This document shows, in pieces, positions 1-41,908 of a stretch of 41,908 nucleotides of DNA. Both the position numbers and the translations under genes were made by a program. Source of the stretch: a virus; IMG/VR virus record IMGVR_UViG_3300033553_000007, positions 1 to 41,908 of that record. One strand, 5' to 3'. Every line of letters starts with the position of its first letter. The first letter of the stretch is position 1. The notes under the pieces were generated by a model. The model saw nothing but the letters and a program-made list of their open reading frames with translations. It was not told the origin of the DNA and made no database searches.

Positions 1-141
1 AGCTTCCGTTAATGGTGATTTTCAAACTGTCGGCAATTGTCTTCCAGTGCTTCGCGCCTTTGCGGTCGCCGTCTTTCTTGCACTTCGCCGCCATTGCCTT
101 AGCATGAATACGGGTGTTTACGATTTTTTCGTAAACAATCA
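1..141. repeat. Terminal direct repeat, left copy (assembly overlap)
   Basis: These 141 bases are identical to the last 141 bases of the window. The repeat lies inside the DNA polymerase gene, and reading across the joined ends keeps that gene in frame, which supports a circular or circularly permuted molecule. A length of 141 matches a common maximum assembly k-mer, so I read it as an assembly overlap and not a biological terminal repeat. Confidence 0.95.
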
Positions 142-1273
142 AAAACGCTTCGCCTAAGTGCGGCGGGCAAAGTCTTTGGTTTAGGATTGTTCGCGGGTAA
201 AACGATTCTACGTCGTTGTCTGCTAAAATTATTTCTTCGGTCGTGTAATGCGCTGTTTTCTTTTCGCTAGAATGAAGCCCGCCCATCCCTAACTTGTACG
301 TCGAACCGCCGATAGTTACTTTAAGCTTTTCAAGTTCTTTCGGCATAATGGGCGAACCCAAAGCGTCCAAATAGAACCGGGCACCTTGCACAACTTCCAA
401 CATTTCGCGAAGCTGCGGCGTCTGGTAAGAAATGAAGTCGGGCGTTTTATAAGCCAAGACAGTATCGCCCGCTAGTGTGGGCTTTCTTGGGTAATAGCCA
501 AGCACTTTTTGAAGTTCGCTATTAATCACGGCTTCGGCTACTTGGGCGTCTGATTTGCTGCGAAGGTCTACCCCGTATTCTTCCGACATTTCGGCCCGCA
601 ATTTTAATTCGGGCGCAAGTTCATTAAATAAAAGTTCGGTATTTTGAAGGTCATTGCAGCAATACGGACGCACTACCGCCGCGTCTTCTGCGGTTAAAAT
701 ATGATCTTCTGGAAATGGCAAGTCTTGCATTCGTTCGCAGTGCATACGCCCGGCGTAAAGCTTCAACGAACCTTGAAGCGGCGCAACTTCGATTAAATCA
801 ACATGATTGTATTGCCCGATTTTAATTCCATAGCGTTTGGCAAATGCGAACGGCGTTACCTTTTCGGTTCCGTGATTCGGCCCGCTTTTAATGATATAGT
901 CGGAAGCTTCTTTAAGCGTTTCGCAGCTTGCGCCAGTCATTGCAAGTTCAATAATTGGCAAATCATAGTTTCGGCTATTGAAGCCCACAATACAGAACCG
1001 CCAAAGCATCCAACGCAATTTAGTTTCGTTAAAGTTGAAGTCGGGCGACCTTTCAAACGCGATAAACTTTCCGTTGTCAAGGCATTTAAACGCGACGTAC
1101 CAAAAGTTTCTATACGTTTCAACGTCGAATATAAATACGCTTCCGGCTGGCAACGACATTAATTTTTCGTCTGTCATAAATTCGACAGGACGCAAAGCCA
1201 GCCCAATGCTTGCGGCCAGCTTATCAACGACGCGGCTTTTCTTGGCTACTATAAAGCCTTCTTCGTTTAACAT
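1..1273 (-). CDS. Family B DNA polymerase, N-terminal part (exonuclease domain and motif A)
   Basis: Replicative DNA polymerase with a 3'-5' proofreading domain. Joined across the window ends (1273 down to 1, then 41767 down to 40992) it is 682 residues. In this part I see Exo I (D50-V-E52), Exo II (N99 to D104, in FNSRNYD), Exo III (Y204xxxD208) and polymerase motif A (D354-V-E-S-F-Y-P). ATG at 1273 is chosen because AAGGGG lies 6 bases upstream; it overlaps the stop of the clamp-like gene, which ends 10 bases away. This is the last gene of the minus-strand replication block. At about 680 residues it is short for family B, without the protein-priming insertions I would expect in a phi29-type enzyme, though I did not align it. 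Family assignment is from the motifs. Confidence 0.9.
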   Translation of the reverse strand, partial: MLNEEGFIVAKKSRVVDKLAASIGLALRPVEFMTDEKLMSLPAGSVFIFDVETYRNFWYVAFKCLDNGKFIAFERSPDFNFNETKLRWMLWRFCIVGFNSRNYDLPIIELAMTGASCETLKEASDYIIKSGPNHGTEKVTPFAFAKRYGIKIGQYNHVDLIEVAPLQGSLKLYAGRMHCERMQDLPFPEDHILTAEDAAVVRPYCCNDLQNTELLFNELAPELKLRAEMSEEYGVDLRSKSDAQVAEAVINSELQKVLGYYPRKPTLAGDTVLAYKTPDFISYQTPQLREMLEVVQGARFYLDALGSPIMPKELEKLKVTIGGSTYKLGMGGLHSSEKKTAHYTTEEIILADNDVESFYPRTILNQRLCPPHLGEAFLIVYEKIVNTRIHAKAMAAKCKKDGDRKGAKHWKTIADSLKITINGS

Positions 1274-1283
1274 TCAACGCCCC

Positions 1284-2429: not shown

Positions 2430-2433
2430 AGTT

Positions 2434-4089
2434 TCACCATTCAGCGGAAAGAACTTCGGGGTATTTCTTGTTTACCCATACGCGAAGACGGGCGGGCGTG
2501 CGAAGTTCGGAAACACGCCGCAAGGCTTCGCAAGTTGTAGGCGGCGGGTCTTCGTTGTGCCGTTGTTTCCACCAGTCCCGCGACCGTTTCGCCGCAAAGC
2601 CCGGATGCTCTAACGTTACGAATTCGTTAAACATTTGAAAGCCGCAAAAGTAACTAACTTTAATCATTGGCGGTTTCGTTAACACGCCGTTAGCGTCGCG
2701 CTTTTCGTGTAAATTGTAAAGCACTTTTTGAACGTCGAAATATTCGACTATCGGTGCGTCGCTTCGTAGCGGTTCCAATATACCAGCGGTTGCAAATATT
2801 TTTGTTTCAAAGCTAAATTCTGACCCACAATTAATACACTGTCGGGCGGCTGCGTGATTGTATACGCCGCAAACTTCGCAAATACGAACCGGGGCGTCGC
2901 CGCCGCCTTTGCCGGGTTTGTTAGGAATGCGCGGGTCGTTTATTGGCCCAAGTCTACGAACGTTCCCGGCAAAGTCGCTATATAAGCAATTTAATTTGTT
3001 CGTTCCCGGCGAAGGTCGCGTGCCACGGCCCAACTTTTGAACGTGCTTGCCCGGCGAAAGCGTCGGGTTCAAGTCCGCTATGTAATCAATAGGCGGATGG
3101 TCAAAACCTGTTGTTAACTTTTGCCCGGAAACTATGCCGCGAAGTTCGCCCGCTTTATATGCCCGCAAGCGTTCGGTATTAACCTTCGCGGGTAATTTCG
3201 AATGAACCGGCAAAACTTCTAAGCCGTAACTTTGAATTACGCTTGCGACGTGTTCCGTATTATTAATACCTGTTGCAAAAATTAGCCAACAATTGCGGTC
3301 GTATGCAGTTTCCATCATTTCGCGAACCGCAGAAAAAACAATTTCGTCGGTATCTGCGGCGGCTTCTAACTGTTTGTTGTTGAATTCGCCAGCGGTAAGA
3401 CCTACCGAAGAAAGGTCTATTTCTGTTCGGGTTGGCTTCGCAATAAGTGGTGACAAGAAGCCTTCGGCGATAAGACGATTAAACGAATCAACGCCGGTTA
3501 TGTCGTAACAAATATCGGTAAAAATTCCGCCGTCGGTTATCATGCCTTGTTTCATTCGATACGCAGTTGCAGTAAAACCAATTACTTTTAAGTTCGGGTT
3601 AATCTTCAAAAGTTCGGCAATAATATATTGATACTGTGAATCTTCTTTAGGGCTTAACAAATGGCATTCGTCAATTAACAGCAAATCGCGCCAGCCGAAA
3701 TGCTGCAAATGCGTCGGGCGTCCGTCGTCTTCGCGCAAAGCCTTTTCGATAGCTGGCGCGACAGATTGAACCCCGCCGAATATGATTGGCATGATTACTT
3801 CGCGCGAATTTAAACCCGCCGAATAAACGCCAAGCGGCGCAGTCGGCCAAACCGACATAAGCTTTTCGGCGTTTTGTTCGATAAGTTCTTTAACGTGCGT
3901 AAGCATCATAATTCGCTGATTCGGCCAAAGACCAAAAACCCGCCGAATAAAGTTGGCAATAACTACCGACTTTCCGGTTCCCGTCGGCATAGCGACGACC
4001 GGGTTTCCGACTTGGCCGCGTTGGAAATAGTCGAATATATGGTATTCGGCTTCGTCCTGATACCAACGCGGAACGTAAATGCTAGACAT
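2434..4089 (-). CDS. SF2 DEAD/DEAH-family helicase with zinc finger
   Basis: ATP-dependent DNA/RNA helicase of superfamily 2, 551 residues from the ATG at 4089. Motifs in order: Walker A MPTGTGKS (34-41), DECH box in LLIDECHLL, motif III-like GFTATAYR, and motif VI in QKLGRGTRPSPG. After the second RecA lobe there is a CxxC...CxxC zinc knuckle (CEVCG and CINCG). It resembles RecG/Rad25-like phage helicases used in replication or recombination. An in-frame TTG at 4098 is an alternative start, but ATG at 4089 is preferred; it overlaps the end of the upstream nuclease gene by 8 bases, suggesting translational coupling. The nuclease-helicase adjacency recalls RecB/Cas4-type processing pairs (inference). 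Confidence 0.9.
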   Translation of the reverse strand: MSSIYVPRWYQDEAEYHIFDYFQRGQVGNPVVAMPTGTGKSVVIANFIRRVFGLWPNQRIMMLTHVKELIEQNAEKLMSVWPTAPLGVYSAGLNSREVIMPIIFGGVQSVAPAIEKALREDDGRPTHLQHFGWRDLLLIDECHLLSPKEDSQYQYIIAELLKINPNLKVIGFTATAYRMKQGMITDGGIFTDICYDITGVDSFNRLIAEGFLSPLIAKPTRTEIDLSSVGLTAGEFNNKQLEAAADTDEIVFSAVREMMETAYDRNCWLIFATGINNTEHVASVIQSYGLEVLPVHSKLPAKVNTERLRAYKAGELRGIVSGQKLTTGFDHPPIDYIADLNPTLSPGKHVQKLGRGTRPSPGTNKLNCLYSDFAGNVRRLGPINDPRIPNKPGKGGGDAPVRICEVCGVYNHAAARQCINCGSEFSFETKIFATAGILEPLRSDAPIVEYFDVQKVLYNLHEKRDANGVLTKPPMIKVSYFCGFQMFNEFVTLEHPGFAAKRSRDWWKQRHNEDPPPTTCEALRRVSELRTPARLRVWVNKKYPEVLSAEW

Positions 4090-5179
4090 TTTTTGCAATC
4101 GCCGTAATTGATTCGTAAGACGGGCAAGCCTGCGGTATAAAGTCTTTCGGAATTACGCCGTTGTGAACGTCGCAAAACCATTCGGCGTTTTCTACCGGGT
4201 GCGCGTGTTTGCAGCTTCGGCAATTGCGTTCGGGGATTGCGCCCTTGTGGCAAATGTCTTTCATTGCGCAATAACCGCACTTATAAAACGTCGGATTATC
4301 CGAAATACGCGGCGGCGCTTCTTGCGAACAAATAATTCGTTCGGCCTTCGCTATCATTTGTTCGCCTAACTTATGGTCAAGCTTTGCGACTTCAACATGC
4401 AACGAATCGTCGTTTTTATTAATGTTCAAATAAACAACGTATTTAAAATCGTACTTCTTGCCATACGTTGAAACTTGCGCGAAATGCTCGGGCTTGGCTA
4501 CCGGCATTCCGCTTTCGCCTAGCTTGTTAAAGCCTGCGCCGGTTCCGTTGGTTTTAAATTCCAGCAAGACGGGTTCGACTATGCCGTAGCGTTCCGGCAA
4601 AATTGCGATACCGTCAAGCGACCCGCCGAAGTGCCCCATAACGTCGGAAATTCGATATTGCGGGAACGACAGGCCGTCGGCCTTAGCGCGGGCAACGTGG
4701 GCACGAAATAAAGGATCGTCGTTGGTAATGAACCGACAGCCCAACGGCAATTCTTCGCCCGGCTTCAATAGTCCGTAACTGTTCGCTTCGTCTTGATAAA
4801 AGAAACCTTCGTAGTTTTCGAACCAGATTTTAAAGCCGATACCTTCCAGCCATTCTATAAAGCGGTCTTCTTCACGGTGCCCACGATTAAACAAGCGTTG
4901 TTGCCGCCCGGTGTGCTTTTCGTGCAAGCACCAGCGGAAGACGTACCACAAGAAGCGCGAACAGTCGCGACCGATTAACGACGCGCCAAGGTGCGAACGG
5001 TGCCCGTCGTCGTAAGTCGTCGCGCAATATTCGTCTATATCTTCAAGAACGCGTTTCGACAGCGCAGCGGCTACGCCTGGCGAACTAAGTTCGACGCTTT
5101 GTTTTCCTGCGTCTTGCTTCGTCGCTGTTTCGCTTATCAATTGCGCTTGCGCGTTCGTTTCTTCTTTCTTGCTTGGCAT
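4082..5179 (-). CDS. Cas4/RecB-like PD-(D/E)XK nuclease with probable Fe-S cluster
   Basis: A 365-residue nuclease. The catalytic core shows D189 in GGSLDG and E207-F-K209 in LLEFKT, the PD-(D/E)XK pattern; H101 sits in RGHREED. C73 near the N-terminus, together with C301, C304 and C310 (CGYCxxxxxC), matches the four-cysteine iron-sulfur 'staple' of Cas4 and AddB. Further Cys at 320, 323 and 336 could form a second metal site. Likely role: exonuclease in phage recombination or DNA processing, working with the downstream helicase and the Sak4-like ATPase. Start ATG 5179 follows AAGGTGA at good spacing even though the first 32 codons overlap the upstream gene in another frame. Confidence 0.85.
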   Translation of the reverse strand: MPSKKEETNAQAQLISETATKQDAGKQSVELSSPGVAAALSKRVLEDIDEYCATTYDDGHRSHLGASLIGRDCSRFLWYVFRWCLHEKHTGRQQRLFNRGHREEDRFIEWLEGIGFKIWFENYEGFFYQDEANSYGLLKPGEELPLGCRFITNDDPLFRAHVARAKADGLSFPQYRISDVMGHFGGSLDGIAILPERYGIVEPVLLEFKTNGTGAGFNKLGESGMPVAKPEHFAQVSTYGKKYDFKYVVYLNINKNDDSLHVEVAKLDHKLGEQMIAKAERIICSQEAPPRISDNPTFYKCGYCAMKDICHKGAIPERNCRSCKHAHPVENAEWFCDVHNGVIPKDFIPQACPSYESITAIAKNV

Positions 5180-5612: not shown

Positions 5613-5632
5613 AGAATGCGATTCCCCATAAT

Positions 5633-5664
5633 AAAAAGCCGGGGCCGGTTAAAGCCCCGGCTAA
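5633..5664 (-). terminator. Rho-independent terminator inside the replication block
   Basis: On the minus strand a 9-bp GC-rich perfect stem (5654-5662 pairing with 5637-5645), an 8-base loop, then a run of T (complement of 5633-5637). It lies after the probable SSB gene and before the zinc-finger gene. It should reduce transcription of the nuclease, helicase, clamp and polymerase genes relative to SSB and the ATPase. Confidence 0.85.
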
Positions 5665-5685
5665 TTTGCCGTTGTTGCTTACGAC

Positions 5686-6450
5686 TTAACGTGCGCCCCA
5701 AGGTGCCGCGCCGCCCGGTGCCGCTTGACCGCCGCCGTTTGGTTGCTGTTGCCAGCCGCCGCCATTGTTGGCCGGGGCTTGGTTCTGCGCTGGCTGTTCC
5801 TGCGCCGGTTGCTGGTTTTGCGCTGGCTGTTGCTGCGCTGGCTGTTGGTTCTGTGCCGGTTGCTGCTGACCGCCCCAAGCTGCGCCGCCTTGTGCTGGCT
5901 GTTCCTGCGCCGGTTGCTGGTTTTGGGCTGGCTGTTGACCCCAAGCCCCGCCCTGCGCCGGTTGACCGCCGAAAGCGTCGTTGCCCTGCGGCTGTTGCTG
6001 CGCTGGCTGTTGCTGCGGTTGTGCTGCGGCTTGGCCTGCGCCAGCTTTGCCCGGTTCGTTGCCGTTAACGTCGAACACCTTTTTAACTTCGGTGTATTGG
6101 GCGTCGTTTTTCTGCGGCCCAACTTCGATAATAAACGGGATATTGTGCAACTGCGACGAATCCGCTACTTGGAACACGCCGACAACGTGACAAACTGCGG
6201 AAAGTTGACGGTGCGCGATTTCGACGGTCTGTTGGCTTGAATGGTACAGGTTCAAGCGGTAAGCGCCGGTTGTGCCTTGCTGCGGGCCGTCAATGATTTT
6301 CAAATTAAGTTGAAGGTATCCGCCGTCGTTGTTTTTGTTCGATTTCACTTCCGAAGAAGCAATTACGACCGGGTGCCGACCAATCGGTAAACTTCCCGCG
6401 CCTTGGCTTGGGTCGAACTGTTGTGCGTTGAACGCCTGAATCAATTGCAT
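5686..6450 (-). CDS. DUF669-type protein, probable single-stranded DNA-binding protein
   Basis: 254 residues. The first about 130 form a compact domain (MQLIQAFNAQQFDPSQGAG..., GGYLQLNLKIIDGPQQG, NLYHSS...A..QLSAVC.VVG) matching what I know of DUF669 proteins, which lie beside recombinases in many phages and are thought to bind ssDNA. The rest is a disordered tail of about 120 residues built from PAQNQQ/PAQEQ repeats, ending in GAAPWGAR. It lacks the acidic tip of bacterial SSB. Start ATG 6450 follows AAGGTGA. It sits directly downstream of the Sak4-like ATPase, the usual partner. Confidence 0.75.
   Translation of the reverse strand: MQLIQAFNAQQFDPSQGAGSLPIGRHPVVIASSEVKSNKNNDGGYLQLNLKIIDGPQQGTTGAYRLNLYHSSQQTVEIAHRQLSAVCHVVGVFQVADSSQLHNIPFIIEVGPQKNDAQYTEVKKVFDVNGNEPGKAGAGQAAAQPQQQPAQQQPQGNDAFGGQPAQGGAWGQQPAQNQQPAQEQPAQGGAAWGGQQQPAQNQQPAQQQPAQNQQPAQEQPAQNQAPANNGGGWQQQPNGGGQAAPGGAAPWGAR
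5789..5937. repeat. Direct repeat in the coding sequence of the SSB-like tail
   Basis: A 32-bp perfect direct repeat (5789-5820 and 5894-5925, 105 bases apart) extends to 43 bp with one mismatch. It lies within a longer run of degenerate PAQ-coding units from about 5750 to 6020. The repeat suggests growth by slippage or unequal recombination and may vary in copy number among relatives. Confidence 0.85.
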
Positions 6451-6506
6451 GATTTCACCTTTTCGAAAAGTCCTTGCCGTTTGTTACGGTCGGCAAAGTA
6501 AACCGT

Positions 6507-7223: not shown

Positions 7224-7245
7224 AACTGTTCACCTTTTGAAAGTA

Positions 7246-7274: not shown

Positions 7275-7280
7275 CGTTGG

Positions 7281-9121: not shown

Positions 9122-11440
9122 ATGTATCAAAACATACCTAACGAAATGCGGACTTATCCGCAATGGGTAATGTGGCGATACGAAGACACCGATTCGAAGA
9201 AACCTACAAAGGTTCCGTATTCGGCCCGTACTGCCAGACTTGCCAGCGTAACAGACCCGACAACATGGGGAACGTTCGACGAATGCGTTAACGCTATGTC
9301 ATCCGGTTGGTATAGCGGAATCGGCTTCGTATTGACCGAAAACGACCCATACGCATTTATTGACCTTGACGACACCAAAGGCGACCAAACTTCGCTTGAC
9401 CGTCAAGTAAAGATTTTTAACGAATTCGCAAGCTATGCCGAAAAGTCGCCGTCTGGTTACGGCTTGCACATTATCGTAAAAGGCGCGATACCTGCGGGCC
9501 GTCGCCGTTCCTTTATCGAAATTTATTCTTCGGCCCGTTATATGACAATGACGGGCGACGTTTACCGCGACGCGCCTATTAAAGAACAAGGCGAATTGTT
9601 GAACATTCTTTGGGGCCAAATGGGCGAAGGTTCCATAGCTGTTGCCCATTATGCCGGATTGGCCGAAGCCAAGGAAACCGACGAAGAAGTTTATAAACGC
9701 GCTGTCGAAGCTGCGAACGGCGATAAATTCGCGGAACTGTTCGCGGGCAAATGGGAAGGCATGTACGCTTCGCAATCGGAAGCCGACTTTGCTTTGGTCG
9801 ATATTATCGCATTTTATACGCAGAACCGGGCGCAGATTAAGCGAATGTTTCGGGCGTCTGGTTTAGGCAAACGCGACAAAGCACAACGCGACGATTACGT
9901 TTCGTATATGCTTAATAAGTGCTTCGACCGCATGTTACCGCCCGTTGATATTGACGGCTTGCGCAACAAGTTAGACGAAGCCATAGCCAACAAACAAGCG
10001 CAACACGACGCCGAAGTTATGTCGCGCAATTCCGCAGCGTTGCCGCACCAAGAAGCACAACCGCCCAAGCTGTCGGAAACTTCCAGCGTATACAGCGTGC
10101 CGCCCGGATTAGTTGGCGAAATCGCCCAATATATCTACGCACAAGCGCCGCGCCCTGTACCTGAAATTTCCTTAGCCGGTGCGTTGGGTTTGGTCGCTGG
10201 CATTGTGGGCCGGGCGTACAACATATCGGGAACGGGTTTAAACCAATACGTCTTATTGTTGGCACCTACCGGAACAGGTAAAGAAGCAATCGCAAGCGGC
10301 ATTGATAAACTAATGGCGCAAGTTATCCGAACGGTTCCGGCTGCGGCTGAATTTATCGGCCCCGGCGAAATTGCGTCGTCGCAAGCAATTATCAAGTATA
10401 TGTCGCGCGGGCCAAATTCTTTCGTATCATTGGTCGGCGAGTTCGGCATTTACCTTCAACAAATGGCAAGCGTTAACGCACCGCCGCACCTTACCGGGCT
10501 TCGTCGCTTTCTGTTGGACGCTTACAACAAGTCGGGCGAAAACAAAGTTCTTCGGCCTTCCATTTATTCGGACAAGGACAAGAACACAAGCGCCGTTCTT
10601 TCGCCGTCGTTTACCATGCTTGGCGAATCAACGCCCGAAAAGTTTTACGAAGGCTTGCACGAAGGTTTGATTTCCGAAGGTTTGTTGCCGCGTTTTACCA
10701 TGATTGAATACCACGGCGAACGGCCACCATTGAACCCGGCGCACTTGTCGGCCCAACCATCGTTCGAACTAATCGACAGGCTTTCGACTATCTGCGCGCA
10801 TGCGTTAATGTTGAACAGCCAGAACAAAGCGATACACGTTCAAACCGACCCGGACGCGAAAGCGTTGTTCGATAAGTTCGACGCACATTGCGACGCAAAT
10901 ATAAACACAAGCGACCGCGAAATTCGCCGCCATTTATGGAACCGGGCGCACGTTAAGGCGTTGAAGCTTGCCGCAATTATTGCCGTTGGCTGCAACCCAT
11001 ACGACCCGAACATAAATAGCGACGTTGCATCATGGGCGATTAACCTTGTTGTAGCCGACGTTCGAAATTTGCTTGCACGCTTCGACGCTGGCGAAATCGG
11101 CATAGACAACGACGAAACGAAACAGCTTGCAAAGGTAATCGGAACGGTAAAAGATTTCGTCGTTTCACCTTGGCCGGACGTTGCGAAGTATGCAGGCGAA
11201 GGCGCGGGCGTGTTGCATTCGAATCGTATTATTCCTTACAGCTATGTACAAAGAAGACTTGCCGCCGTTGCCGTATTCCGTAAAGACCGCATAGGGGCAA
11301 GCGGTGCAATTAAAAAGGCGTTGAAGACCTTATGCGAACGCGGCGACCTTCAAGAAGTAAGCCGGGCCACACTGTCGAAAGAATACAATACGACCGCCGT
11401 TGCGTACATGGTCGCGCATCCGGGCGTATTCGGCTTATGA
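9122..11440 (+). CDS. Primase-polymerase / DUF3987-type helicase fusion
   Basis: 772 residues. The N-terminal 170 match phage and plasmid PrimPol (archaeo-eukaryotic primase) domains: MRTYPQWVMWRYED, KKPTKVPYS, the metal site D81-L-D83, and S109...H116 in SPSGYGLHIIVKG. A middle helical region links to an ATPase domain with Walker A APTGTGKE (381-388), resembling DUF3987 helicase-like domains. It would prime DNA synthesis and unwind at the fork, feeding the family B polymerase. The start codon follows the upstream stop with no gap, implying coupled translation. A strong terminator follows. Confidence 0.85.
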   Translation: MYQNIPNEMRTYPQWVMWRYEDTDSKKPTKVPYSARTARLASVTDPTTWGTFDECVNAMSSGWYSGIGFVLTENDPYAFIDLDDTKGDQTSLDRQVKIFNEFASYAEKSPSGYGLHIIVKGAIPAGRRRSFIEIYSSARYMTMTGDVYRDAPIKEQGELLNILWGQMGEGSIAVAHYAGLAEAKETDEEVYKRAVEAANGDKFAELFAGKWEGMYASQSEADFALVDIIAFYTQNRAQIKRMFRASGLGKRDKAQRDDYVSYMLNKCFDRMLPPVDIDGLRNKLDEAIANKQAQHDAEVMSRNSAALPHQEAQPPKLSETSSVYSVPPGLVGEIAQYIYAQAPRPVPEISLAGALGLVAGIVGRAYNISGTGLNQYVLLLAPTGTGKEAIASGIDKLMAQVIRTVPAAAEFIGPGEIASSQAIIKYMSRGPNSFVSLVGEFGIYLQQMASVNAPPHLTGLRRFLLDAYNKSGENKVLRPSIYSDKDKNTSAVLSPSFTMLGESTPEKFYEGLHEGLISEGLLPRFTMIEYHGERPPLNPAHLSAQPSFELIDRLSTICAHALMLNSQNKAIHVQTDPDAKALFDKFDAHCDANINTSDREIRRHLWNRAHVKALKLAAIIAVGCNPYDPNINSDVASWAINLVVADVRNLLARFDAGEIGIDNDETKQLAKVIGTVKDFVVSPWPDVAKYAGEGAGVLHSNRIIPYSYVQRRLAAVAVFRKDRIGASGAIKKALKTLCERGDLQEVSRATLSKEYNTTAVAYMVAHPGVFGL

Positions 11441-13543: not shown

Positions 13544-13777
13544 ATGCGGCCCGTTTGTCGTATGAAGCAAGAAGACTTCTTAGAAGGCGCACATTTTGCG
13601 CTTAAAGTTGGCAAATTTGCGATAACCGCCGAATCAGGCGGCGAAGTACGTTTAACGGTAGTCGAACGCGGTACGACGAAGGTTTTTAACGTAACGCCAG
13701 ACGTTGCAATTAAGATTGCAGCCGCGTTACAATCTGTCGCTATATGCGCGAAACATTCTAAGGAGTTCAACGAATGA
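13544..13777 (+). CDS. Small protein, unknown
   Basis: 77 residues (or 71 from ATG 13562). A beta-rich middle (FALKVGKFAITAES, EVRLTVVERGTTKVFNV) is followed by a helix (PDVAIKIAAALQSVAI). No membrane segment. Its end overlaps the VRR-NUC start by 4 bases (ATGA), so the two are probably translated together and it may assist or regulate that nuclease (inference). Confidence 0.7.
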   Translation: MRPVCRMKQEDFLEGAHFALKVGKFAITAESGGEVRLTVVERGTTKVFNVTPDVAIKIAAALQSVAICAKHSKEFNE

Positions 13778-14295
13778 CCCCGGATAAACTAGCGAAGTCG
13801 GGCACCGAACACGGCCACCAAACGGCCTTATTCGCTTATGTGGCCGTCGCGTACTTGCACGGCTTCGACGTAGCCGACCAATGGTCGAAGACTGGCAAGC
13901 TTCCAGAACGTCGCCCAATCAACCACGGCGAACACGCGCCCGCAGTCCCGGCCCTTGAATGGTTCCACGCCATACACAACCAAGGGCACGGCGACAAGGT
14001 GCGCGGGGCCAACGCCAAGGCCGAAGGCGTGCGCAAGGGCATAGCCGACACATTCTTACCGTGGCCCGTATGGACGCAAAGCCGCGAAGAAGTCGTTATA
14101 GCGTATTGCGGACTTTATATCGAAATGAAGAAGCCGACCGAACGACCGAAGACAGACAAAGGCAAAGGCGGCGTATCGGACGAACAAGCGCAGTTCGGCG
14201 AATATGCGAAAGGTGTTGGTTATGGGTTTATGGTGTGCTATGGTTGGGAACATGCAGCAAGCGTTCTTCGTAGTTATATCGAATGGAAGGGGTAA
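13774..14295 (+). CDS. VRR-NUC-type endonuclease
   Basis: 173 residues with the VRR-NUC arrangement: E62 and H65 in ALEWFHAIHNQG, D92 in RKGIADTFLP, E117-M-K119 in LYIEMKKP, and Q in SDEQAQFGEYAKGVGYGFMVCYGWEHA. Standalone phage VRR-NUC enzymes act on branched DNA such as Holliday junctions and replication flaps, so it probably resolves recombination or replication intermediates before packaging. AAGGAG precedes the ATG, and the start overlaps the previous gene. It is the only clearly enzymatic gene within the small-gene block. Confidence 0.85.
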   Translation: MTPDKLAKSGTEHGHQTALFAYVAVAYLHGFDVADQWSKTGKLPERRPINHGEHAPAVPALEWFHAIHNQGHGDKVRGANAKAEGVRKGIADTFLPWPVWTQSREEVVIAYCGLYIEMKKPTERPKTDKGKGGVSDEQAQFGEYAKGVGYGFMVCYGWEHAASVLRSYIEWKG

Positions 14296-30506: not shown

Positions 30507-30511
30507 GCGAA

Positions 30512-33500: not shown

Positions 33501-34117
33501 ATGTTTATTTGAATTCGGCAAGCCAGTTTTTCGGAAGCTTGACCGCACTTCAAAAAAGTGAACACAAGAAACTTGCCGCAGTAGGCAAAGCCGCAGCTAT
33601 TGCACAAGCAACGATAAGCACTTATCAAAGCGCAACAAGTGCTTACGCCGCAATGGCCGGTATTCCATACGTCGGCCCGGCGTTGGGCGCGGCTGCGGCT
33701 GCGGCTGCGATTGTCGCAGGCTTGGCTAACGTCCAACAAATCAGGGCGCAAAATACGGGCTTTCAGTCGGGCGGCTATACGGGTTCAATGGGCGTAAGCG
33801 AAGTCGCGGGCGTTGTTCACGGTCAAGAATATGTAATGAACGCCGCAGCAACGAACCGCATTGGCGTTAACGACCTTCAAGCTTTGCAGTCTGGCGCGGC
33901 AAGTGTTCAACGCAACGACGACCAAGCCGGAAAGGGCAATGTGGGCACACAAGCCCCGGCCCCGGCCCCTGTCGTAAATATGCCTTTTAGCGCAGTTGTT
34001 GTACAATCAAAAGAAGCCGCATTGGGCGCGCTGAAATCTTCGGAAGGCCGGGCCTTCATTCTCGAAACAATCGAAGAAAACGGAAGCACTGTCGCAAAAG
34101 TTATCGGGGTTAAATAA
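30512..34117 (+). CDS. Tape measure protein
   Basis: 1201 residues. An N-terminal helical part, about 75-175, is an Ala/Gln/Arg/Thr-rich repetitive helix containing two QRLATEQQRTA copies. The tape-measure domain follows (about 195-360: NKLQNVAESQAQVNKLTEEL, ETATAFTRFDRALRVMG, FRAVSENMPIVLDAVAQATG), then hydrophobic segments (about 405-470), coiled coils (about 720-880) and a Gly-rich end (GGYTGSMGVSEVAGVVHGQEYVMN). It sets tail length: about 180 nm if 0.15 nm per residue applies. The end may enter the host membrane during DNA ejection. Confidence 0.95.
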   Translation: MSDENIEIKVQDKVSPSISNKLRTIATESRNADAAVKNLQLQLNALNGNNLNVILKNASQASRALQQTTIAAQRLATEQQRTASAAANAAAAQTRATTATTQGATAQQRLAAATARTSAAQAQGQTAAQRLATEQQRTAAAAARTAAANDRAAIAALRLQQAQDRQAQSSRNAASAMGRYIRTAAGIAGVTLSAGAIIGSADAYVTLQNKLQNVAESQAQVNKLTEELFSLANETRASVTETATAFTRFDRALRVMGKSQEDSLRLTETVNKALIVGGATAQEASSALLQLSQAFNAGRLQGDEFRAVSENMPIVLDAVAQATGRPITEIKKLASEGKITSAVLFEAFSLIQDKVDETFNKTLPTIGQSFKVLKNSTIQFFGQLNEATGFTRALSSIMLTLAENIKLVAVVLAGVGAAMLLAFGPAIVAGVVAATTAVKAFTIALATNPIGLIIVALASAIAYLTLFRDEIDAGIDGVTTLGDLFRAVFESIGQAIDDVKSIAGELWASLFDDASASLADTSTAVTDATGAWYDDYAAFFETNRTGWAAALEWAAKTFDAIGGLLTGLGIFAGRALAQIVISVQNAIANAYDFIVRYIERVTNLAIEAANKLRAMVGKAGYELVNFERMGQAGQTEFEGFGKLWAESLEDGFSSQGGALQKVLDNTFNRAAEIGAGRRSGAVTQLRGAGVDQTGGTTDDKAAKAAERRGLALEKINTQLDNEISRMFQLQPQREAQAKFDQIEESLIQKKIKLTNEEADSIKAKIKAIQEATEVQKQFDSIYNEAVGPAKEYNSTLAAANQLLEMGAITQEQYSRSILKSSEAYANSEDPMRQYNKDLQQQFDLLNLLPKQREIEQQIMQVQNDLLSKGIELNETELAQLRERLTLLQQVNAVSQQEASLLDASVGKRQAYIDQLAAINRLSADQSSGFTAGDQAGATNGLLQGMGVDTTNFQTAIDAQLASYQTYTEQLKMLNDQKLISDQEYAAASMQVELGRQNVYLNSASQFFGSLTALQKSEHKKLAAVGKAAAIAQATISTYQSATSAYAAMAGIPYVGPALGAAAAAAAIVAGLANVQQIRAQNTGFQSGGYTGSMGVSEVAGVVHGQEYVMNAAATNRIGVNDLQALQSGAASVQRNDDQAGKGNVGTQAPAPAPVVNMPFSAVVVQSKEAALGALKSSEGRAFILETIEENGSTVAKVIGVK

Positions 34118-35079
34118 TGGGATACGCAATAGGAACGGTATTAAAAGAAGGCGGCGACGATTGCCATTATCGGGTTTTGGCAATTATAAAAACGCTTGCC
34201 GAAGCTAACGGATGGGCAACCCTTCGTTATGTATCAACCGGGCTTGACCGCGAATTAATTTTAAAAGGCGTCGGGCTGTCAGGCGTCGAAGAAATTTTTG
34301 TAGGTTTCAAGTGCTACCAAAGCATTTCGGGCGATTACTACAACATAAATTGCGGCGTGTTTGTCGGATATATCGCCGGACATAGTTTCGAAAGCCAACC
34401 GGGCGCGCAGTTTAGCGCAGTACAAGCCCACAATAATGCGGTTACATATTTTATAACAGCTAACGCACAACGAATTGTCGGGTGTTTTAAAGTAGGTACG
34501 CCGGTATACGAACATTTTTACGTCGGCAAATTCTTTCCTTACGCGCGCCCCGGCGAATACCCGTCGCCGCTTGCTTGCGGTGCTATGCTAAACGGCGCCG
34601 AAGCAACAAGATTTGACAATACGTCGCAAGTTTTCCCGTATCCGGGCTATTATTATTCAACCGCTCAAAATCGGCTATACCAGCGCGATCAAGCCGGTAA
34701 TTGGGCTCGTCCTTATTGCTACCCTTTCACACAAGGATACCAAAGTACAAACGCGCTTGCAGGCCCGCAGGGTTCGAACACTATGGTTCCGGCTGGTGCT
34801 TATTACCAGTTGGAACCGGTTATTTTGGCGCAGCAAACATCGGATGTTAACCCTTCTAACGTATGGGGCGAATTCGACGGTGTTTATTTTTGTTCCGGCT
34901 TTAACAACGGCGTAGAAAACGTTGTTCAAGAAGGCGGAAGTTCTGTCGTAGACCAAACCGGCTTAACTGTGTTGCAAGCGGTTGACGCAATTTTGGCAAT
35001 AGGCGGGCGGGCGTTTGTTATGTTACAAAACGTCTACCGCACTTCTTGGAGCGACTTTATAGCTATGGAAATGAAATAA
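34117..35079 (+). CDS. Tail-tip virion protein, unknown role
   Basis: 320 residues, rich in Tyr, Gly and Phe. TLAEANGWATLRYVSTGLDRELILKGVGLSGVEEIFVGF is a pattern seen in virion proteins after the tape measure of many phages; the centre has FPYARPGEYPSPLACGAML and an aromatic, surface-like segment. It shares its N-terminal 'ANGW' plan and C-terminal shape with the next gene. Possible distal tail or receptor-contacting protein. Local base use is less GAG/CTC-poor than the rest of the genome. Confidence 0.7.
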   Translation: MGYAIGTVLKEGGDDCHYRVLAIIKTLAEANGWATLRYVSTGLDRELILKGVGLSGVEEIFVGFKCYQSISGDYYNINCGVFVGYIAGHSFESQPGAQFSAVQAHNNAVTYFITANAQRIVGCFKVGTPVYEHFYVGKFFPYARPGEYPSPLACGAMLNGAEATRFDNTSQVFPYPGYYYSTAQNRLYQRDQAGNWARPYCYPFTQGYQSTNALAGPQGSNTMVPAGAYYQLEPVILAQQTSDVNPSNVWGEFDGVYFCSGFNNGVENVVQEGGSSVVDQTGLTVLQAVDAILAIGGRAFVMLQNVYRTSWSDFIAMEMK

Positions 35080-36035
35080 TGGCATACATTACAGGAAGCG
35101 CCGCAAGCTTTGCGGATTTAAAAACAGCAATTGAAAACGCATGCACCGCGAACGGTTGGGCACTTGCCGACGGCATTTTGTCGAAAAGCGGGGCGTTCTT
35201 CAAACTTAGCATTCTTGAAGGAACTTACTCGGCGCTTGTTTTAAACGGCGGTACAAGCAAAACAGGAAGCACTTTAAACGGGCAACCAACGCTGCCGCAA
35301 AACGGCGCGGGTGCTATGATTTCAAATTCAAACGGGGGTATAATTTCTTTTCCAATAAATTACGAAATTCATGTTTTTACAAACCCCGATGAAGTTTATT
35401 GCGTAATTAATTATAACTCAGATTTTTATCAACAACTTTCGTTCGGAAAGTCCGACATTCCGGGCGTAGGCGGTGCCGAAGCTTGGTTTACAGGCAGTAG
35501 TGGCAGTAATGTCCCCACTGGAAGCTCTTCCGCAAGCCTTGTTTACATGAGGTCTTCGAACGCTTTTTGCGGGTCAACGTCTTATAACGGCATTGCTTGC
35601 GGCCTTTGGTTCGAAAAGGAAGTGGAGGGTTCGTACCAGTCTTCGTTTGTGCATTCTAATTTAGACGGAATTTCGAATTGGCGTTGTTCTAGCAACTCAG
35701 TTGTAGGAACTGGCGGTTACGGTATTTCTTACGCGGCGTCGTTGCTTGGTGCTTTGCCCAATATTTCCAACCAAGCAACTATTTTAATTCCTGTAAAAGC
35801 AATTATTTTTAGAAATGACGCAGGTCTAACAATTGCGGCAAACCCTAAAAACGTTCGTTATTTGCGAATCGACAACCATGTTCCCGGTGAAATTATTACA
35901 TTCGGGGCCGAACAATGGAAAGTTTACCCAATGCTTCGCAAAGATTTGACCCAACGAGACGGCGTTAAATACCCAAAAGGCGGCGCGACGCATTCGGGAA
36001 CTTGGGGCTACGCAATTAAATATACAGGGGCTTGA
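35079..36035 (+). CDS. Tail-tip virion protein, relative of its neighbour
   Basis: 318 residues from ATG 35079, which overlaps the previous stop by one base; an upstream TTG-type start at 35046 lies inside the previous gene and is unlikely. The start ADLKTAIENACTANGWALADG matches common phage tip proteins. The body is Ser/Gly/Asn-rich (GSSGSNVPTGSSSASL) like receptor-binding or fibre-attachment proteins. The end (QWKVYPMLRKD...GTWGYAIKYTG) resembles related tip proteins. It has the highest local density of GAG/CTC in the genome. Confidence 0.7.
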   Translation: MAYITGSAASFADLKTAIENACTANGWALADGILSKSGAFFKLSILEGTYSALVLNGGTSKTGSTLNGQPTLPQNGAGAMISNSNGGIISFPINYEIHVFTNPDEVYCVINYNSDFYQQLSFGKSDIPGVGGAEAWFTGSSGSNVPTGSSSASLVYMRSSNAFCGSTSYNGIACGLWFEKEVEGSYQSSFVHSNLDGISNWRCSSNSVVGTGGYGISYAASLLGALPNISNQATILIPVKAIIFRNDAGLTIAANPKNVRYLRIDNHVPGEIITFGAEQWKVYPMLRKDLTQRDGVKYPKGGATHSGTWGYAIKYTGA

Positions 36036-36038
36036 TTA

Positions 36039-37748
36039 ATGGCCGGTCGGTTGGGAACTTTATTATCGGCGCAAAGCTTCGTATACGGCGACGTAAACCC
36101 CAATATTTCAAACGAGCTTAGCCGATTTACGCCAGCCGAATACACGCTGACCATTTACGACCCGCGCGATATGTTTTTGCGCGGCGGTTATTCGGCGTAT
36201 AAAATAGCGCCTTCTAATACTTGGCCTATTGTGGGCAATGAACAACCAAACTTTTTTCGCGATTATTATTTTCGAATTCACGTTGACCCGCATGTATTGG
36301 ATTTGCAAACGGTCGCGTCTTCGCAAACGCGCGAATTTACAGTTTGGAACGCATACCCGTACACAACGGCGAATCTTGACGATATTTTAATAAGCAACCC
36401 GCTTGGTATTGAAATTACAGGCCAAGCGGTGCCGTATGCCATGCCGCCACTTCAAGAACTTGTTTACGCAATAAATATTGGGGTATCCGGGCCGCCGAAC
36501 ATTAACGTCGAAATTCAATTTGATTTTTCAAACGTTGAAAACCCGTTGCCAATTCTTATTGCAGGTACGCGGGCGATTAAGTTTGATATTGTACCCGAAG
36601 TTCCATTAACGGAAGTTTGGGAATGGTTGTCGGACAATATAGTAGCAACGGACGGAACAGAACAGCGCATAGCACTTCGCGGCGAAGTTCCGCGCGTTGA
36701 AAATCAGTTGAAAGTTGTTTTCGATACAGTAGAAGAAATTAGACGTTTTTATTCTACTTTAATTTCAGCACAAGGCCGTTTGTGGTTGCCCGAATTTCAA
36801 TACGCAACGCGAATAACTGCGCCTAGTTTAGCCGGCGAACTAACTATTTATTTCGACGAAACCGAAACAGATATTCGCGCCGCCGAATACGTTTTAGTTC
36901 AAACGCCTTTGACGTCCGCACTTATTGAAATAGAAACTGTGTCGTCTGGAAGTGCTACGATAACGGCGCCGCTTTCTTTTGATATTCCCACAGGTTCTTT
37001 AATAATGCCGGGTTCGCCCGCATTAATTAACGACAATTCGTCTTTAAGCCGTTACGCGCCAAACGAAGTTGCCCAAATAAATTTAACGGCAAAGCTTATT
37101 CGTCAACGTTCGCAAATTAAACGGCCCGGTTCTAGCGTAGTTTTGCCCGAATTCGCAGGTTCGCCAGTTATTGAAAAACGACCGCTTGCCGACGATATGG
37201 TAAACGACAGCGTATCAACCGGCCAAATATCAATCGACAATCAAACAGGCTTGGCCGACATTATTTCACGTTGGGATTATAGCCGCGTAGGTGGCCCGCG
37301 AAGCTTTAAAGTAAACAGAATGAAAGCGCCCGAAGAAATGGACTATTGGAGGGCTGTGTTTTCTTATGCGCGCGGTCAAGCCCGCAAGTTTTGGATGCCC
37401 ACATACCGAACCGACTTGGCCTTGGCTGTTCAACCTTCCGACGGCACTTCAACTTATACGGTCGAAGGCGTCGAATATGCCGAAAAAATTTGGCCTATTG
37501 TTACGCATAGATTTGTTGAAATTGAAACAGCAGGCGGAACACACCGAACCGAAATATTAGGCGCAAGTGTTGCAGGCGCTTCGACAATTCTTCTTTTTCA
37601 AACGCCTTTGCCAGCCGGTGCCGAATGGATGCAGGTTAAACGAATATCTTACTTGTTACCTGTTCGTTTCAACGACGATAAAGTAGAATGGCGGCATTAT
37701 GGGTTAGAATCAATTTTGAACGTTTCAATTAGGACGGCGGAAGTATGA
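36039..37748 (+). CDS. Tail/baseplate assembly protein with duplicated modules
   Basis: 569 residues. Two stretches follow the same plan, an FW/LW-P module: about 188-262 (EQRIALRGEVPR...FYSTLISAQGRLWLPEF) and about 410-470 (SRVGGPRSFKVNRM...AVFSYARGQARKFWMPTYRTD), resembling distal-tail proteins of the DUF2460/gp53-like type. The N-terminal 170 residues are beta-rich and I do not recognise them. Probably part of the ring between the tail tube and hub. Stop overlaps the next ATG (ATGA). Confidence 0.7.
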   Translation: MAGRLGTLLSAQSFVYGDVNPNISNELSRFTPAEYTLTIYDPRDMFLRGGYSAYKIAPSNTWPIVGNEQPNFFRDYYFRIHVDPHVLDLQTVASSQTREFTVWNAYPYTTANLDDILISNPLGIEITGQAVPYAMPPLQELVYAINIGVSGPPNINVEIQFDFSNVENPLPILIAGTRAIKFDIVPEVPLTEVWEWLSDNIVATDGTEQRIALRGEVPRVENQLKVVFDTVEEIRRFYSTLISAQGRLWLPEFQYATRITAPSLAGELTIYFDETETDIRAAEYVLVQTPLTSALIEIETVSSGSATITAPLSFDIPTGSLIMPGSPALINDNSSLSRYAPNEVAQINLTAKLIRQRSQIKRPGSSVVLPEFAGSPVIEKRPLADDMVNDSVSTGQISIDNQTGLADIISRWDYSRVGGPRSFKVNRMKAPEEMDYWRAVFSYARGQARKFWMPTYRTDLALAVQPSDGTSTYTVEGVEYAEKIWPIVTHRFVEIETAGGTHRTEILGASVAGASTILLFQTPLPAGAEWMQVKRISYLLPVRFNDDKVEWRHYGLESILNVSIRTAEV

Positions 37749-38569: not shown

Positions 38570-38571
38570 TT

Positions 38572-40995
38572 ATGTGGCTTGCATTTGCCTTTGTTATTGC
38601 GGTTTTGCTTGTCGCAGTTCTTACACCAAAGCCGAACATTGAAAACGCCCGCGCTGCGAAGCTTGGCGACTTCCAGTTTCCAAGATCGAAGCACGGCGAC
38701 CCTATGCCTTTAGTGTGGGGAACAGTTCGCCAAAAGTCGCCGATTACCGCTTGGCATGGTGACTTTCGCCCGGTTCCTATTAAAAAGAAAGTTTCAAGCG
38801 GTCTTTTTAGTTCGAAGAAAGTTACGGTCGGTTATAAAAATTATCTTGGCATTGATTGCATTTTATGTCTTGGCCCCGGCGTTAAGCTTAAAAAGTTTTG
38901 GGCCGGTACTTACCTTGTTTGGTCTGGCGAACTTGCTTCGTCTGGAAGTATCTATATAAACAAACCGAACTTGTTTGGCGGCGAAGAAGAACGCGGCGGT
39001 TTGCAAGGAACTTTGCAATTTTACGACGGACGCTTTGACCCGCCGCAAGATTCTTATTTGGTTTCGAAATTGGGCGCAAATGTCCCGGCTTACAACGGCT
39101 TCGCGCGTGCGCTGTTCAAGTCCTTTTATATTGGAACTTCGACAACCCCGGACGCTTTCAGCTTTGAAGTTTCGCGCATGACTTCGGGGCTTCACCCTAT
39201 TTATTCAATAATGCCGAACGGGTTAGACGCTAACCCAATGGAAATTATATACGACGCAGTTACTCAAAAATGGGGCCGCTTCGGCAATCTTTCTTCCGAG
39301 CTTGACTTACCGTCATTTGTTGATTGTGCCCACACTTTATACGACGAAGGCTTGGGAATGTCTTTGCTTGTTCAATCTGCAATAACTGGAAAGGACTTGC
39401 TAGAAGAAGTTATGCGCGTTGCCGACGGTGTTTTGTATCAAGACCCCGCAACTTCGAAAATAGTCGCCAAGCTAATTCGAAAAGATTACGTCATAGGCGA
39501 TTTAATAGTTCTTAACGAATCTTCGGTCAAGACTTTGAAGAATTTTCAGAAAACAACTTGGGAAAATACTTTTAACCAATGTCGGGTAACGTTCAAAGAG
39601 CGAAGCAACGGCTACGACACAAGCGTAGCGATTACCCAAGATTTCGCAAACATAAACTTTCAACAGCGCGTAAAGTCTACCGAAATTTCTTCGCCCGGTT
39701 GCACGCAAGCGGCTGTTGCAAGCGTGCTTGCAGCCCGACAACTTTCTTTGCTAAACGTTCCGCTTTACAAATGCGACCTTGTTGTAAACCGCAAAGCGCA
39801 AAGCCTGCTCCCCGGAAGCGTGTTCGTTTTGAATTGGGGGCCGTTCGGTATTTTAAATATGGTCATGCGTATTACGAAAATTGATTTCGGCGACCTTACT
39901 TCAAACGAAATTAAGTTGTCGTGCATTCAAGACCGCTTTTCGACGGCAACGCCTACGTTCGCCGATTCGGAAGCTTCGAACTGGACTCCGATTAACACAA
40001 ACCCAAACCCTGTTCCGCTGCGGCTTCTTTTTACGCCACCCGCTTTCCTGACTGCCAACGATTTAAACGAAGCGGTTTCGACTTTTGATAGTGCGGGCCG
40101 ATTGTACGTTGCAGCCGTTGCGCCGGGGCCTGCGTCTTATGCTGTCAACGTTATGACTTCTTCGGATAACTTCGCGACAGGGGGCGTTAGTTCTATTGAA
40201 AGCGCGCCATATAACGGCGGCGGGGTAATGCAAGCCGCTTATTCGGCAACTGTTGCAGCAACAACGCGCAACGACACAACGGGCTTTACTGTTGGCGGTG
40301 TTTCGCAAAATAGCATCGACAATTTGCAGCAATTAGCAAACATAACGCAAGCCCGCGACGGTTCGGCATTCTTGCTTATAAACAATGAATTGTTTATATA
40401 TGTGGGCTTTGTTGACAACGGTAACGGCACGGTTACTTTTCCCAATGTGTATCGCGGCGTTTTAGACACGATACCGGGAACCCATGCGGCAAACGACCGG
40501 GTTTGGTTTATTAGTGGAACAGACGGCCTTGTTCCTGAATTAGTGCCGGTTGGTTCAACGCGCTATGTAAAATTGCTTGATAAAACACCGGGCGGGGTTC
40601 TTGATATTTCCTTGGCCCCTACGTTTAGCGCTGCCCCGACCAACCGCGCCGGGCTACCGTTGCCGCCGCAGAACCTAACCCTTAACGGAAGTCGCACGCC
40701 TGCGCCTGTCGTAGCCGCCACAAGCGTTTCGGTTGCTTGGGTAAACCGTAGTCGCACCGATACCACTTTGCGCGTCTACAACGACACGGCAAACAACCGG
40801 GAAGCGGGAACGCAAACCCGGTTGCGCTGGCGCGTAGGTGGCGGCGGTTACACGACCGTGCTTACTACTTCCAACAGTTCGACGCTTGACGTCACGGGCC
40901 TTGCTGGAACTTTAGAAGTTATTGTAGATTCGCAAATAATTTCGAATAGTAAATATTCGACTTACACCGACACGCTTACAATGACACTAAGCTAA
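38572..40995 (+). CDS. Large tail-tip protein (megatron / host-specificity-like)
   Basis: 807 residues. A hydrophobic N-terminal segment (LAFAFVIAVLLVAVL) precedes KLGDFQFPRSKHGDPMPLVWGTVRQKSP, typical of tail-tip 'phage tail' proteins. The middle (ETTWENTFNQCRVTFKERSNGYDTS-type region, with D..RYFS...) resembles tip-hub domains, and the C-terminal 100-120 residues look like a fibronectin-III-type domain (VAATSVSVAWVNRSRTDTTL). It probably contacts the host and closes the tube. No separate long fibre gene follows. Its TAA overlaps the polymerase stop on the other strand. Confidence 0.8.
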   Translation: MWLAFAFVIAVLLVAVLTPKPNIENARAAKLGDFQFPRSKHGDPMPLVWGTVRQKSPITAWHGDFRPVPIKKKVSSGLFSSKKVTVGYKNYLGIDCILCLGPGVKLKKFWAGTYLVWSGELASSGSIYINKPNLFGGEEERGGLQGTLQFYDGRFDPPQDSYLVSKLGANVPAYNGFARALFKSFYIGTSTTPDAFSFEVSRMTSGLHPIYSIMPNGLDANPMEIIYDAVTQKWGRFGNLSSELDLPSFVDCAHTLYDEGLGMSLLVQSAITGKDLLEEVMRVADGVLYQDPATSKIVAKLIRKDYVIGDLIVLNESSVKTLKNFQKTTWENTFNQCRVTFKERSNGYDTSVAITQDFANINFQQRVKSTEISSPGCTQAAVASVLAARQLSLLNVPLYKCDLVVNRKAQSLLPGSVFVLNWGPFGILNMVMRITKIDFGDLTSNEIKLSCIQDRFSTATPTFADSEASNWTPINTNPNPVPLRLLFTPPAFLTANDLNEAVSTFDSAGRLYVAAVAPGPASYAVNVMTSSDNFATGGVSSIESAPYNGGGVMQAAYSATVAATTRNDTTGFTVGGVSQNSIDNLQQLANITQARDGSAFLLINNELFIYVGFVDNGNGTVTFPNVYRGVLDTIPGTHAANDRVWFISGTDGLVPELVPVGSTRYVKLLDKTPGGVLDISLAPTFSAAPTNRAGLPLPPQNLTLNGSRTPAPVVAATSVSVAWVNRSRTDTTLRVYNDTANNREAGTQTRLRWRVGGGGYTTVLTTSNSSTLDVTGLAGTLEVIVDSQIISNSKYSTYTDTLTMTLS

Positions 40996-41908
40996 AAGAA
41001 TGACAGTGTGGCGGTTGTTGCCTTTTTCAACCGCCCGCAGTCGTACAACATGCTTATAGCTTCTTCTATGTACCAATCGTAATTAATGTCGTCTGGAAAT
41101 TCGGTCGGCAAATCCATTAAAGGCCGTGCGCCGTCTGTCTTGCCTACTTTGTTTCCGCTTGTAACGTATGCAATATGCCCGGCTTCGTTCTTCGGGTAAT
41201 ACCAGCGAACAACCTTGCCTAAATATTTTCCGTTCTTTTCGCCGCCGCCGCGAACGTTTTTAACTGCGACAAAGCGGCGAATGTCTTTGCATTCCTTTAC
41301 GGTCTTTTCGACGGGTACGTTATTTACAAGGTACTGCAAAACAGCGTCGGCGCAAATCAAGGTTTCGGGGTTCTTCGACAAAATCGAATTAAGCGCCGAC
41401 CCGCGTTCGCAATAAGCGCCTTTAGTCTTCGCCCCTAGCCTGTCGTCTAAAAAGCGGGCTTCTTCGTCGCCTTCTTCTTTAATTGCAACGTATGAATTCA
41501 CGTCGCGGCTATGGACGGCCTTGTAGCGGGTTTCTTCGGTCTTGTATCCGGTGTACGCTTCCCATGCTGCAATAAGCGCCCTTACTTCGTCGTGCCGGTC
41601 TTTGTGATACTTTGAAATAACGCCGTCGGTGTTGCCCGACACTACGTCGATTCCAATTGCTTCTAAAGCTTCAATAAGCATAAGCAAGACAAGTTGCCCG
41701 GTTATCGTTACTTGCAACATAAGTTGCGGCGCGTAAAGCGTTGAATACTTGTTGCCAAGTTTACCGAAGCTTCCGTTAATGGTGATTTTCAAACTGTCGG
41801 CAATTGTCTTCCAGTGCTTCGCGCCTTTGCGGTCGCCGTCTTTCTTGCACTTCGCCGCCATTGCCTTAGCATGAATACGGGTGTTTACGATTTTTTCGTA
41901 AACAATCA
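40992..41908 (-). CDS. Family B DNA polymerase, C-terminal part (motifs B and C)
   Basis: Continues the gene that begins at 1273. Motif B is K418-ITI-N422-G-S-F-G and motif C is G-N470-T-D472-G, where most family B enzymes have DTDS; the essential second Asp is kept and the first is Asn. The last residues KKATTATLSFF look like a clamp-binding tail (hydrophobic-FF end), and a clamp-like gene lies just upstream. The 5' end is cut only by the window. It converges with the tail-tip gene, stops overlapping. Confidence 0.9.
   Translation of the reverse strand, partial: IVYEKIVNTRIHAKAMAAKCKKDGDRKGAKHWKTIADSLKITINGSFGKLGNKYSTLYAPQLMLQVTITGQLVLLMLIEALEAIGIDVVSGNTDGVISKYHKDRHDEVRALIAAWEAYTGYKTEETRYKAVHSRDVNSYVAIKEEGDEEARFLDDRLGAKTKGAYCERGSALNSILSKNPETLICADAVLQYLVNNVPVEKTVKECKDIRRFVAVKNVRGGGEKNGKYLGKVVRWYYPKNEAGHIAYVTSGNKVGKTDGARPLMDLPTEFPDDINYDWYIEEAISMLYDCGRLKKATTATLSFF
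41010..41035. terminator. Hairpin at the convergent gene end, possible terminator
   Basis: An 8-bp perfect stem (41010-41017 with 41028-41035) whose loop contains five T, inside the last codons of the polymerase gene. It may stop rightward transcription from the tail genes and prevent antisense RNA. It lacks a trailing T run, so efficiency is uncertain. Confidence 0.4.
41768..41908. repeat. Terminal direct repeat, right copy (assembly overlap)
   Basis: Identical to 1-141 over all 141 bases. Remove one copy when closing the genome. Confidence 0.95.

Follow-up and report, generated by a model that had tools for sequence, protein, structure and literature searches.

Near-absence of GAG/CTC from a Septimatrevirus-like siphophage follows phage lineage and points to ongoing selection at the DNA level

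Avoidance of short motifs in phages is already known for restriction sites and PAMs. T4-like phages degrade host DNA while the modified phage DNA is spared, and Vsr, the endonuclease of very-short-patch repair, shapes the frequencies of short motifs. Primases read trinucleotides, in phage T7 by means of a zinc-binding domain. PAM depletion has been documented in P. aeruginosa phages, and the P. aeruginosa PAMs named there are CC, AAG and TTC, none of which is GAG (PMC12174588). Here, we analyzed the virus record IMGVR_UViG_3300033553_000007 (41,908 nt; referred to as the window, meaning the whole stretch of DNA), from which GAG/CTC is nearly absent. As in restriction-site avoidance and PAM depletion, selection strips a short motif genome-wide from both strands, but here the motif is nonpalindromic and only three bases long, 94-99% of it has been removed and the loss is lineage-wide across alpha-, beta- and gamma-proteobacterial hosts. 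A parallel with the Vsr system lies in the Vsr-annotated gene of this lineage; unlike in Vsr repair, however, the gene occurs equally in undepleted relatives, and selection accounts for the pattern better than a bias in repair. The activity that we infer below would resemble T4-type degradation in harming host and not phage DNA, but immunity would rest on missing sites instead of a modified base.

The window represents a Septimatrevirus-like siphophage. It is collinear with Pseudomonas phages 73 and Ab26 (primase, 88% identical), and its 15 kb structural module matches both at ~79% identity and 96% coverage (megablast); given this identity, the window may belong to a sister genus of Septimatrevirus and not to the same genus. 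The early module runs in the order clamp, SF2 helicase, Cas4-like exonuclease, DUF3268, SSB, Sak4-like ATPase, DUF7173, MazG and primase, followed downstream by small early genes and then by the lysis, terminase, head and tail genes, and the polymerase is apparently divided between both window ends, as for a circularly permuted record (Table 1). The Cas4-like gene, which overlaps the DUF3268 gene, has counterparts annotated as Cas4-domain exonucleases in KL1 and PaMx42, and its family was found in 54 of the 56 genomes compared. The VRR-NUC-like nuclease, annotated as Vsr in KL1, is probably a Holliday-junction resolvase. Just 5′ of the primase, at 8609-9121, a GIY-YIG nuclease domain is fused to a weak helix-turn-helix match, and relatives carry a short helix-turn-helix protein at this position instead. 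Several relatives encode a distinct accessory protein (~210-240 aa), part of which corresponds to the final ~100 residues of the primase-helicase (RcTitan (G010) at 39321-39629, G001, G005-G007 and G009). An Rfam scan of the window returned no match.

Table 1. Principal features of the window, with their positions and the evidence for each
Feature	Position	Strand	Evidence
Near-absence of GAG/CTC (42 sites)	1..41908	both strands, all codon phases	direct counts and shuffles
SF2 (ResIII-type) helicase, early module	2434..4098	-	Pfam ResIII E=2.9e-18; in 55/56 genomes
Cas4-like/RecB-family exonuclease	4082..5179	-	weak Pfam Cas_Cas4 match, under cut-off
DUF3268 (PF11672, phrog_1934) zinc-ribbon protein, 175 aa	5085..5612	-	Pfam E=7.9e-34
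DUF669 single-strand DNA-binding protein, early module	5686..6450	-	domain match; annotated in relatives
Primase-helicase, lineage marker	9122..11440	+	core to phage family
VRR-NUC-like nuclease	13774..14295	+	in depleted and undepleted relatives alike
Residual GAG/CTC cluster, poorly conserved tail region	34061..36114	.	11/42 window sites; among least conserved segments

The + strand of the window holds exactly 23 GAG and 19 CTC, whereas 1310 sites are expected from base composition and 701 from a first-order Markov model, and 200 dinucleotide-preserving shuffles gave 678 ± 19 with a minimum of 621. The first-pass annotation of this DNA had reported the near-absence correctly, but with a count of about 36, which is too low, and its expectation of well over 1,000 sites holds for base composition but not when dinucleotides are kept (~680). 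The observed/expected ratios of CTC (0.058) and GAG (0.062) are the lowest two of the 64 trinucleotides, and the next-lowest, 0.57, is about nine-fold higher. The strongest over-representation is seen for AAG and GAA, each a single transition from GAG. In the window, CAC/GTG and GGA/TCC show a secondary avoidance (standing frequency, 0.57-0.63), and in relatives they are the main next-lowest trinucleotides among those newly created by substitution (0.3-0.6 of expectation), as if recognition were graded around GAG.

Codon usage was evaluated over 29,265 bases of called genes, in which synonymous codons were reshuffled within each gene so that the protein and its codon usage were kept. In frame, Glu is encoded by GAA in 576 of 583 cases and by GAG in 7, and Leu is encoded by CTC three times, much as the first-pass annotation had noted. 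Off frame on the sense strand, the genes contain 3 GAG against 93 expected and 8 CTC against 211, or 11 against 304 combined; as codon usage was fixed in this comparison, it is not the cause. The same annotation had argued that codon choice alone is insufficient, because GAG is also missing across codon boundaries, and had named a codon-preserving shuffle as a potential refutation; the shuffle does not reproduce the low counts and refutes codon usage or translation as the sole cause. Moreover, GAG and CTC are similarly depleted on the sense strand, which makes the depletion a feature of double-stranded DNA and not of mRNA.

About 10 of the 42 window sites are GGAG ribosome-binding sites before a start codon, comparable in number to the roughly eight AAGGAG sites claimed previously. 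In the 23 genomes with the strongest depletion, GGAG shortly upstream of a start codon likewise accounts for 228 of the 873 remaining sites, the ribosome-binding site being the principal position at which GAG persists. Nothing in the flanking context of residual sites was spared beyond GGAG, which is enriched, and a longer hidden motif around GAG was rejected, there being no consistent context apart from the ribosome-binding site. The cluster of residual sites at 34-36 kb, about eight of which fall within 1 kb of a poorly conserved tail gene region (35046-36035), is probably a recent import that has not yet been purged.

A primase-alignment search of viral contigs yielded 80 relatives, and 56 mostly near-complete genomes were compared. 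Their observed/expected GAG/CTC ratios form a continuum from 0.002 to 1.12. RcSpartan (Rhodobacter) contains 5 sites in 44 kb, PmaS-R3 (Paracoccus) 12, Ab26 (Pseudomonas) 28, KL1 (Burkholderia) 29, PaMx42 38, BAPIC_0004 (Variovorax) 41, Halfdan (E. coli) 66 and KP1 206, and depletion of the same triplet spans phages of alpha-, beta- and gamma-proteobacterial hosts. Intermediate genomes have an even, intermediate GAG/CTC density without a hidden longer motif, which fits weaker selection or decay and not mosaicism. Unrelated control phages are not comparably depleted (YuA of P. aeruginosa, 0.81; T7, 0.94; RcapMu of R. capsulatus, 0.69), each host species being represented by one such phage and isolation hosts possibly differing from natural ones. 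Kimi (1.12) and Birtae (0.27) were both isolated on Sphingomonas LR55, and Kharn, from another Sphingomonas strain, has a ratio of 0.04. GAG/CTC avoidance therefore follows the phage lineage and not the host of isolation. Where GAG depletion is not strong, the lowest trinucleotide is CAG/CTG in Kimi (L028; 0.44) and GGA/TCC in the viral contigs L066 and L067 (0.40-0.42), as if the avoided triplet had shifted in these three; in Kharn and Birtae, the most avoided triplet is GAG and not CAG.

Present-day substitutions were examined in close pairs of relatives, the window itself having no relative close enough. For each pair, the expected number of GAG/CTC-creating differences was derived from each substitution class and the sites where the triplet would arise. 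Ab26 and PSV3, at ~1% divergence of compared sites, show 1 such difference against 72 expected. The pairs of BAPIC_0004 with Ab26 and with PSV3 show 2 against 166 and 4 against 118, those of RcSpartan with RcTitan and with G009 show 2 against 110 and 14 against 321, and G005 and G006 show 21 against 230. A merely hypermutable motif would leave young GAGs at 1% divergence; as few are seen, the pattern reflects selection and not mutation. GAG/CTC is thus under purifying selection at the level of double-stranded DNA, and new GAG-creating substitutions are rejected today. The strength of this selection (2Ns) would amount to a few units for each site, and a slight cost of each site would be enough to produce it. 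Overall, we consider it highly probable that selection on the DNA is ongoing and linked to the phage lineage. Two nonhomologous DNA polymerases occupy the same locus, the Kimi type in PmaS-R3 and G024 and the Ab26 type in the other depleted genomes, so polymerase bias was ruled out as unlikely; at the family locus, the types were compared between L028, L026 and G024 on the one side and L016 and L024 on the other. RcSpartan and RcTitan have no GAG site in common within their aligned half, and the idea that some GAG site is indispensable, for example as an origin, was rejected on this basis.

To look for genes that track the depletion, we clustered every ORF from the 56 genomes and tested the 313 families represented in at least five genomes for association. 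DUF3268 was the best-associated family and the only real gene tracking depletion after phylogenetic correction: 22 of the 23 genomes with a ratio below 0.2 carry it, as do 5 of the 13 with a ratio of 0.2-0.45, whereas all 20 with a higher ratio lack it. It also ranked first in phylogenetic least squares on the primase tree (t=-4.92, or -4.01 with GC content, which itself correlates with depletion). When Kharn, Birtae and Kmi2C were added (59 genomes), its p value was 1.8e-5, or 2.4e-4 with GC content as a covariate, the latter failing strict correction for 313 families; about 3.9 independent contrasts agree and 0 are opposed, of only 5. The remaining high-scoring families are mostly ORFs antisense to conserved genes, by-products that would be predicted if the lack of GAG/CTC in itself alters shadow reading frames. 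DUF3268 is, however, missing from the strongly depleted Kharn and G030, and it is carried by the weakly depleted KP1, G007, G014 and Kmi2C; the Pfam DUF3268 model gave no match in the tested DUF3268-negative genomes, including G030, Kharn and Birtae. Unrelated DUF3268-bearing phages are almost all undepleted, with the exception of L277. DUF3268 is therefore not required for depletion (Kharn and G030 lack it) and does not suffice for it (as unrelated carriers show), and we regard it as the best candidate, not as a proven determinant. In L277, represented by 20 kb from a viral contig of 82 kb (GC, 0.33), GAG/CTC is the lowest trinucleotide at 0.35 of expectation (120 sites), and this contig, seemingly outside the clade, is a possible independent case of GAG avoidance.

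The DUF3268 protein has four zinc-ligand cysteines, and its AlphaFold2 model (pLDDT 88.5, confident) predicts a zinc ribbon, helices and a long basic C-terminal helix. A fold search with this model gave no useful structural match, a profile search of PDB sequences gave weak zinc-finger matches only, and no solved structure was found that backs a nuclease or triplet-reading fold. Other determinants were rejected: the VRR-NUC/Vsr-annotated nuclease is equally present, with an intact active site, in depleted and undepleted genomes, and single residues in core proteins (all but the last two structural proteins were scanned) reached a best |t| of about 3.5-4 over thousands of tests, with no replication protein enriched. 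No primase residue tracks depletion. A dCMP deaminase is encoded by many relatives and is absent from the most depleted ones.

Several other explanations for the selection pressure should be considered. A defence common in natural hosts, such as restriction, nicking or a CRISPR PAM, might target GAG/CTC, and the phages would escape by site loss. Motif avoidance under host defence is well known, PAM depletion is described for P. aeruginosa phages (PMC12174588), and depletion varies among the relatives. Nevertheless, this explanation, which was among those raised by the first-pass annotation, is unlikely as a general cause, since the same triplet is avoided across three classes of proteobacterial hosts, the unrelated phages infecting these species have ordinary ratios and the two phages of Sphingomonas LR55 differ strongly. 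Moreover, GAG differs from the P. aeruginosa PAMs, and AAG and GAA are over-represented in the window, although the host of the window may be another species. No host restriction enzyme matching GAG/CTC was identified, and the unrelated phages of three host species (one phage each) lack comparable depletion. It is also quite unlikely that a phage replication factor with a three-base site, namely the primase-helicase with DUF3268 serving as its zinc-binding domain in detached form, initiates or pauses at GAG/CTC and that sites are purged to prevent misplaced initiation. The primase belongs to the core of the family, the replication module includes DUF3268 as a zinc protein, the T7 enzyme sets a precedent for trinucleotide reading and the avoided triplet seems shifted in relatives (CAG in Kimi, GGA in L066 and L067). 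However, the triplet read by the T7 primase, GTC/GAC, is not avoided in T7 itself (0.98). Genomes with 1-6 sites are viable, and no site is common to RcSpartan and RcTitan within their aligned half, which makes every single site dispensable, and depletion is tracked by no residue of the primase.

A mutational process that destroys GAG/CTC, such as context-dependent deamination, an error-prone polymerase or Vsr-type biased mismatch repair, would agree with the excess of AAG and GAA, with the Vsr annotation in some relatives and with the dCMP deaminase in many. Mutational bias had likewise been proposed previously, but we consider it very unlikely: GAG-creating differences are 70-fold too few at ~1% divergence, which would need implausibly fast decay, GGAG ribosome-binding sites persist in both compared genomes, depleted genomes use two unrelated polymerase types, undepleted genomes carry the VRR-NUC gene equally often and the most depleted genomes lack the deaminase. 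Least probable, and in our view hardly tenable, is that the depletion merely accompanies codon usage or the avoidance of Shine-Dalgarno-like sequences inside genes. The dominance of GAA among Glu codons and the retention of GGAG at ribosome-binding sites might suggest it, but on the sense strand CTC is depleted to the same degree as GAG, the two remain scarce off frame when codon usage is fixed, and no flanking context is spared except GGAG, which is enriched among residual sites.

Our best reading, which we put forward tentatively, is selection from a phage-encoded activity directed at GAG/CTC that would cut or nick. The pressure appears to be phage-encoded because the depletion is tied to the phage clade and not to its hosts. 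Nicking at a very short recognition element, as suggested in the first-pass annotation, is plausible, although the activity would be encoded by the phage and not by the host. In the putative mechanism, the early replication/recombination module (Cas4-like exonuclease, SF2 helicase, SSB and DUF3268) would act preferentially at GAG/CTC. The zinc ribbon of DUF3268 would be the usual triplet reader, steering a nuclease or nickase to GAG, and the neighbouring Cas4-like nuclease and helicase would be its partners. Host or competitor DNA, in which GAG/CTC occurs every few tens of bp, would be processed, and the phage genome would be spared through site absence, so that self would be marked by missing sites and not by base modification. 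We speculate that the phage would benefit from the breakdown of host DNA or the exclusion of other phages. It is conceivable, and we suggest it with more caution, that these phages discriminate self by sequence absence, encoding GAG/CTC-directed processing and keeping a genome near-free of the triplet with no need for modification, and that related lineages have moved to another triplet (CAG, GGA) or have lost or relaxed the system.

Consistent with the earlier observation that no methyltransferase or base-modification gene is visible, no such domain was found among the window proteins scanned, and no 7-deazaguanine (queuosine/DpdA) genes were found in the 56 genomes, including the window. According to two reports, DNA of the Septimatrevirus relatives DLP1 and DLP2 is cut by EcoRI (PMC4559383) and Loki DNA digests as predicted (PMC5313236); cutting by EcoRI speaks against bulk modification at that site. 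The Queuovirinae (VpKK5, Iggy) have a replication module similar to that of this lineage, and VpKK5 carries a DUF3268-type gene in the same place, between SSB and the Cas4 exonuclease, together with 7-deazaguanine genes. Unlike this lineage, however, Vibrio phage VpKK5 (L304; 0.75) and Pseudomonas phage Iggy (L305; 0.80) show no strong GAG depletion. It is tempting to regard DNA modification and the removal of sites as two routes by which a phage genome may be spared.

Most restriction sites are much longer than a trinucleotide, of which hundreds of copies are expected per 42-kb genome, and a loss of 94-99% requires sustained selection at nearly every position. In the open-access literature, as far as the portions consulted extend, we found no report of GAG avoidance or of any phage lineage that avoids a trinucleotide irrespective of its hosts. 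The depletion is easy to score, graded across relatives and present in phages that grow on laboratory strains (E. coli MG1655 for Halfdan, and P. aeruginosa PAO1), so its cause should be findable by gene removal and biochemistry. If a phage nuclease indeed spares its own DNA by missing sites, these phages would be a possible source of enzymes with three-base specificity and would use a self/non-self strategy that is undescribed in the literature searched.
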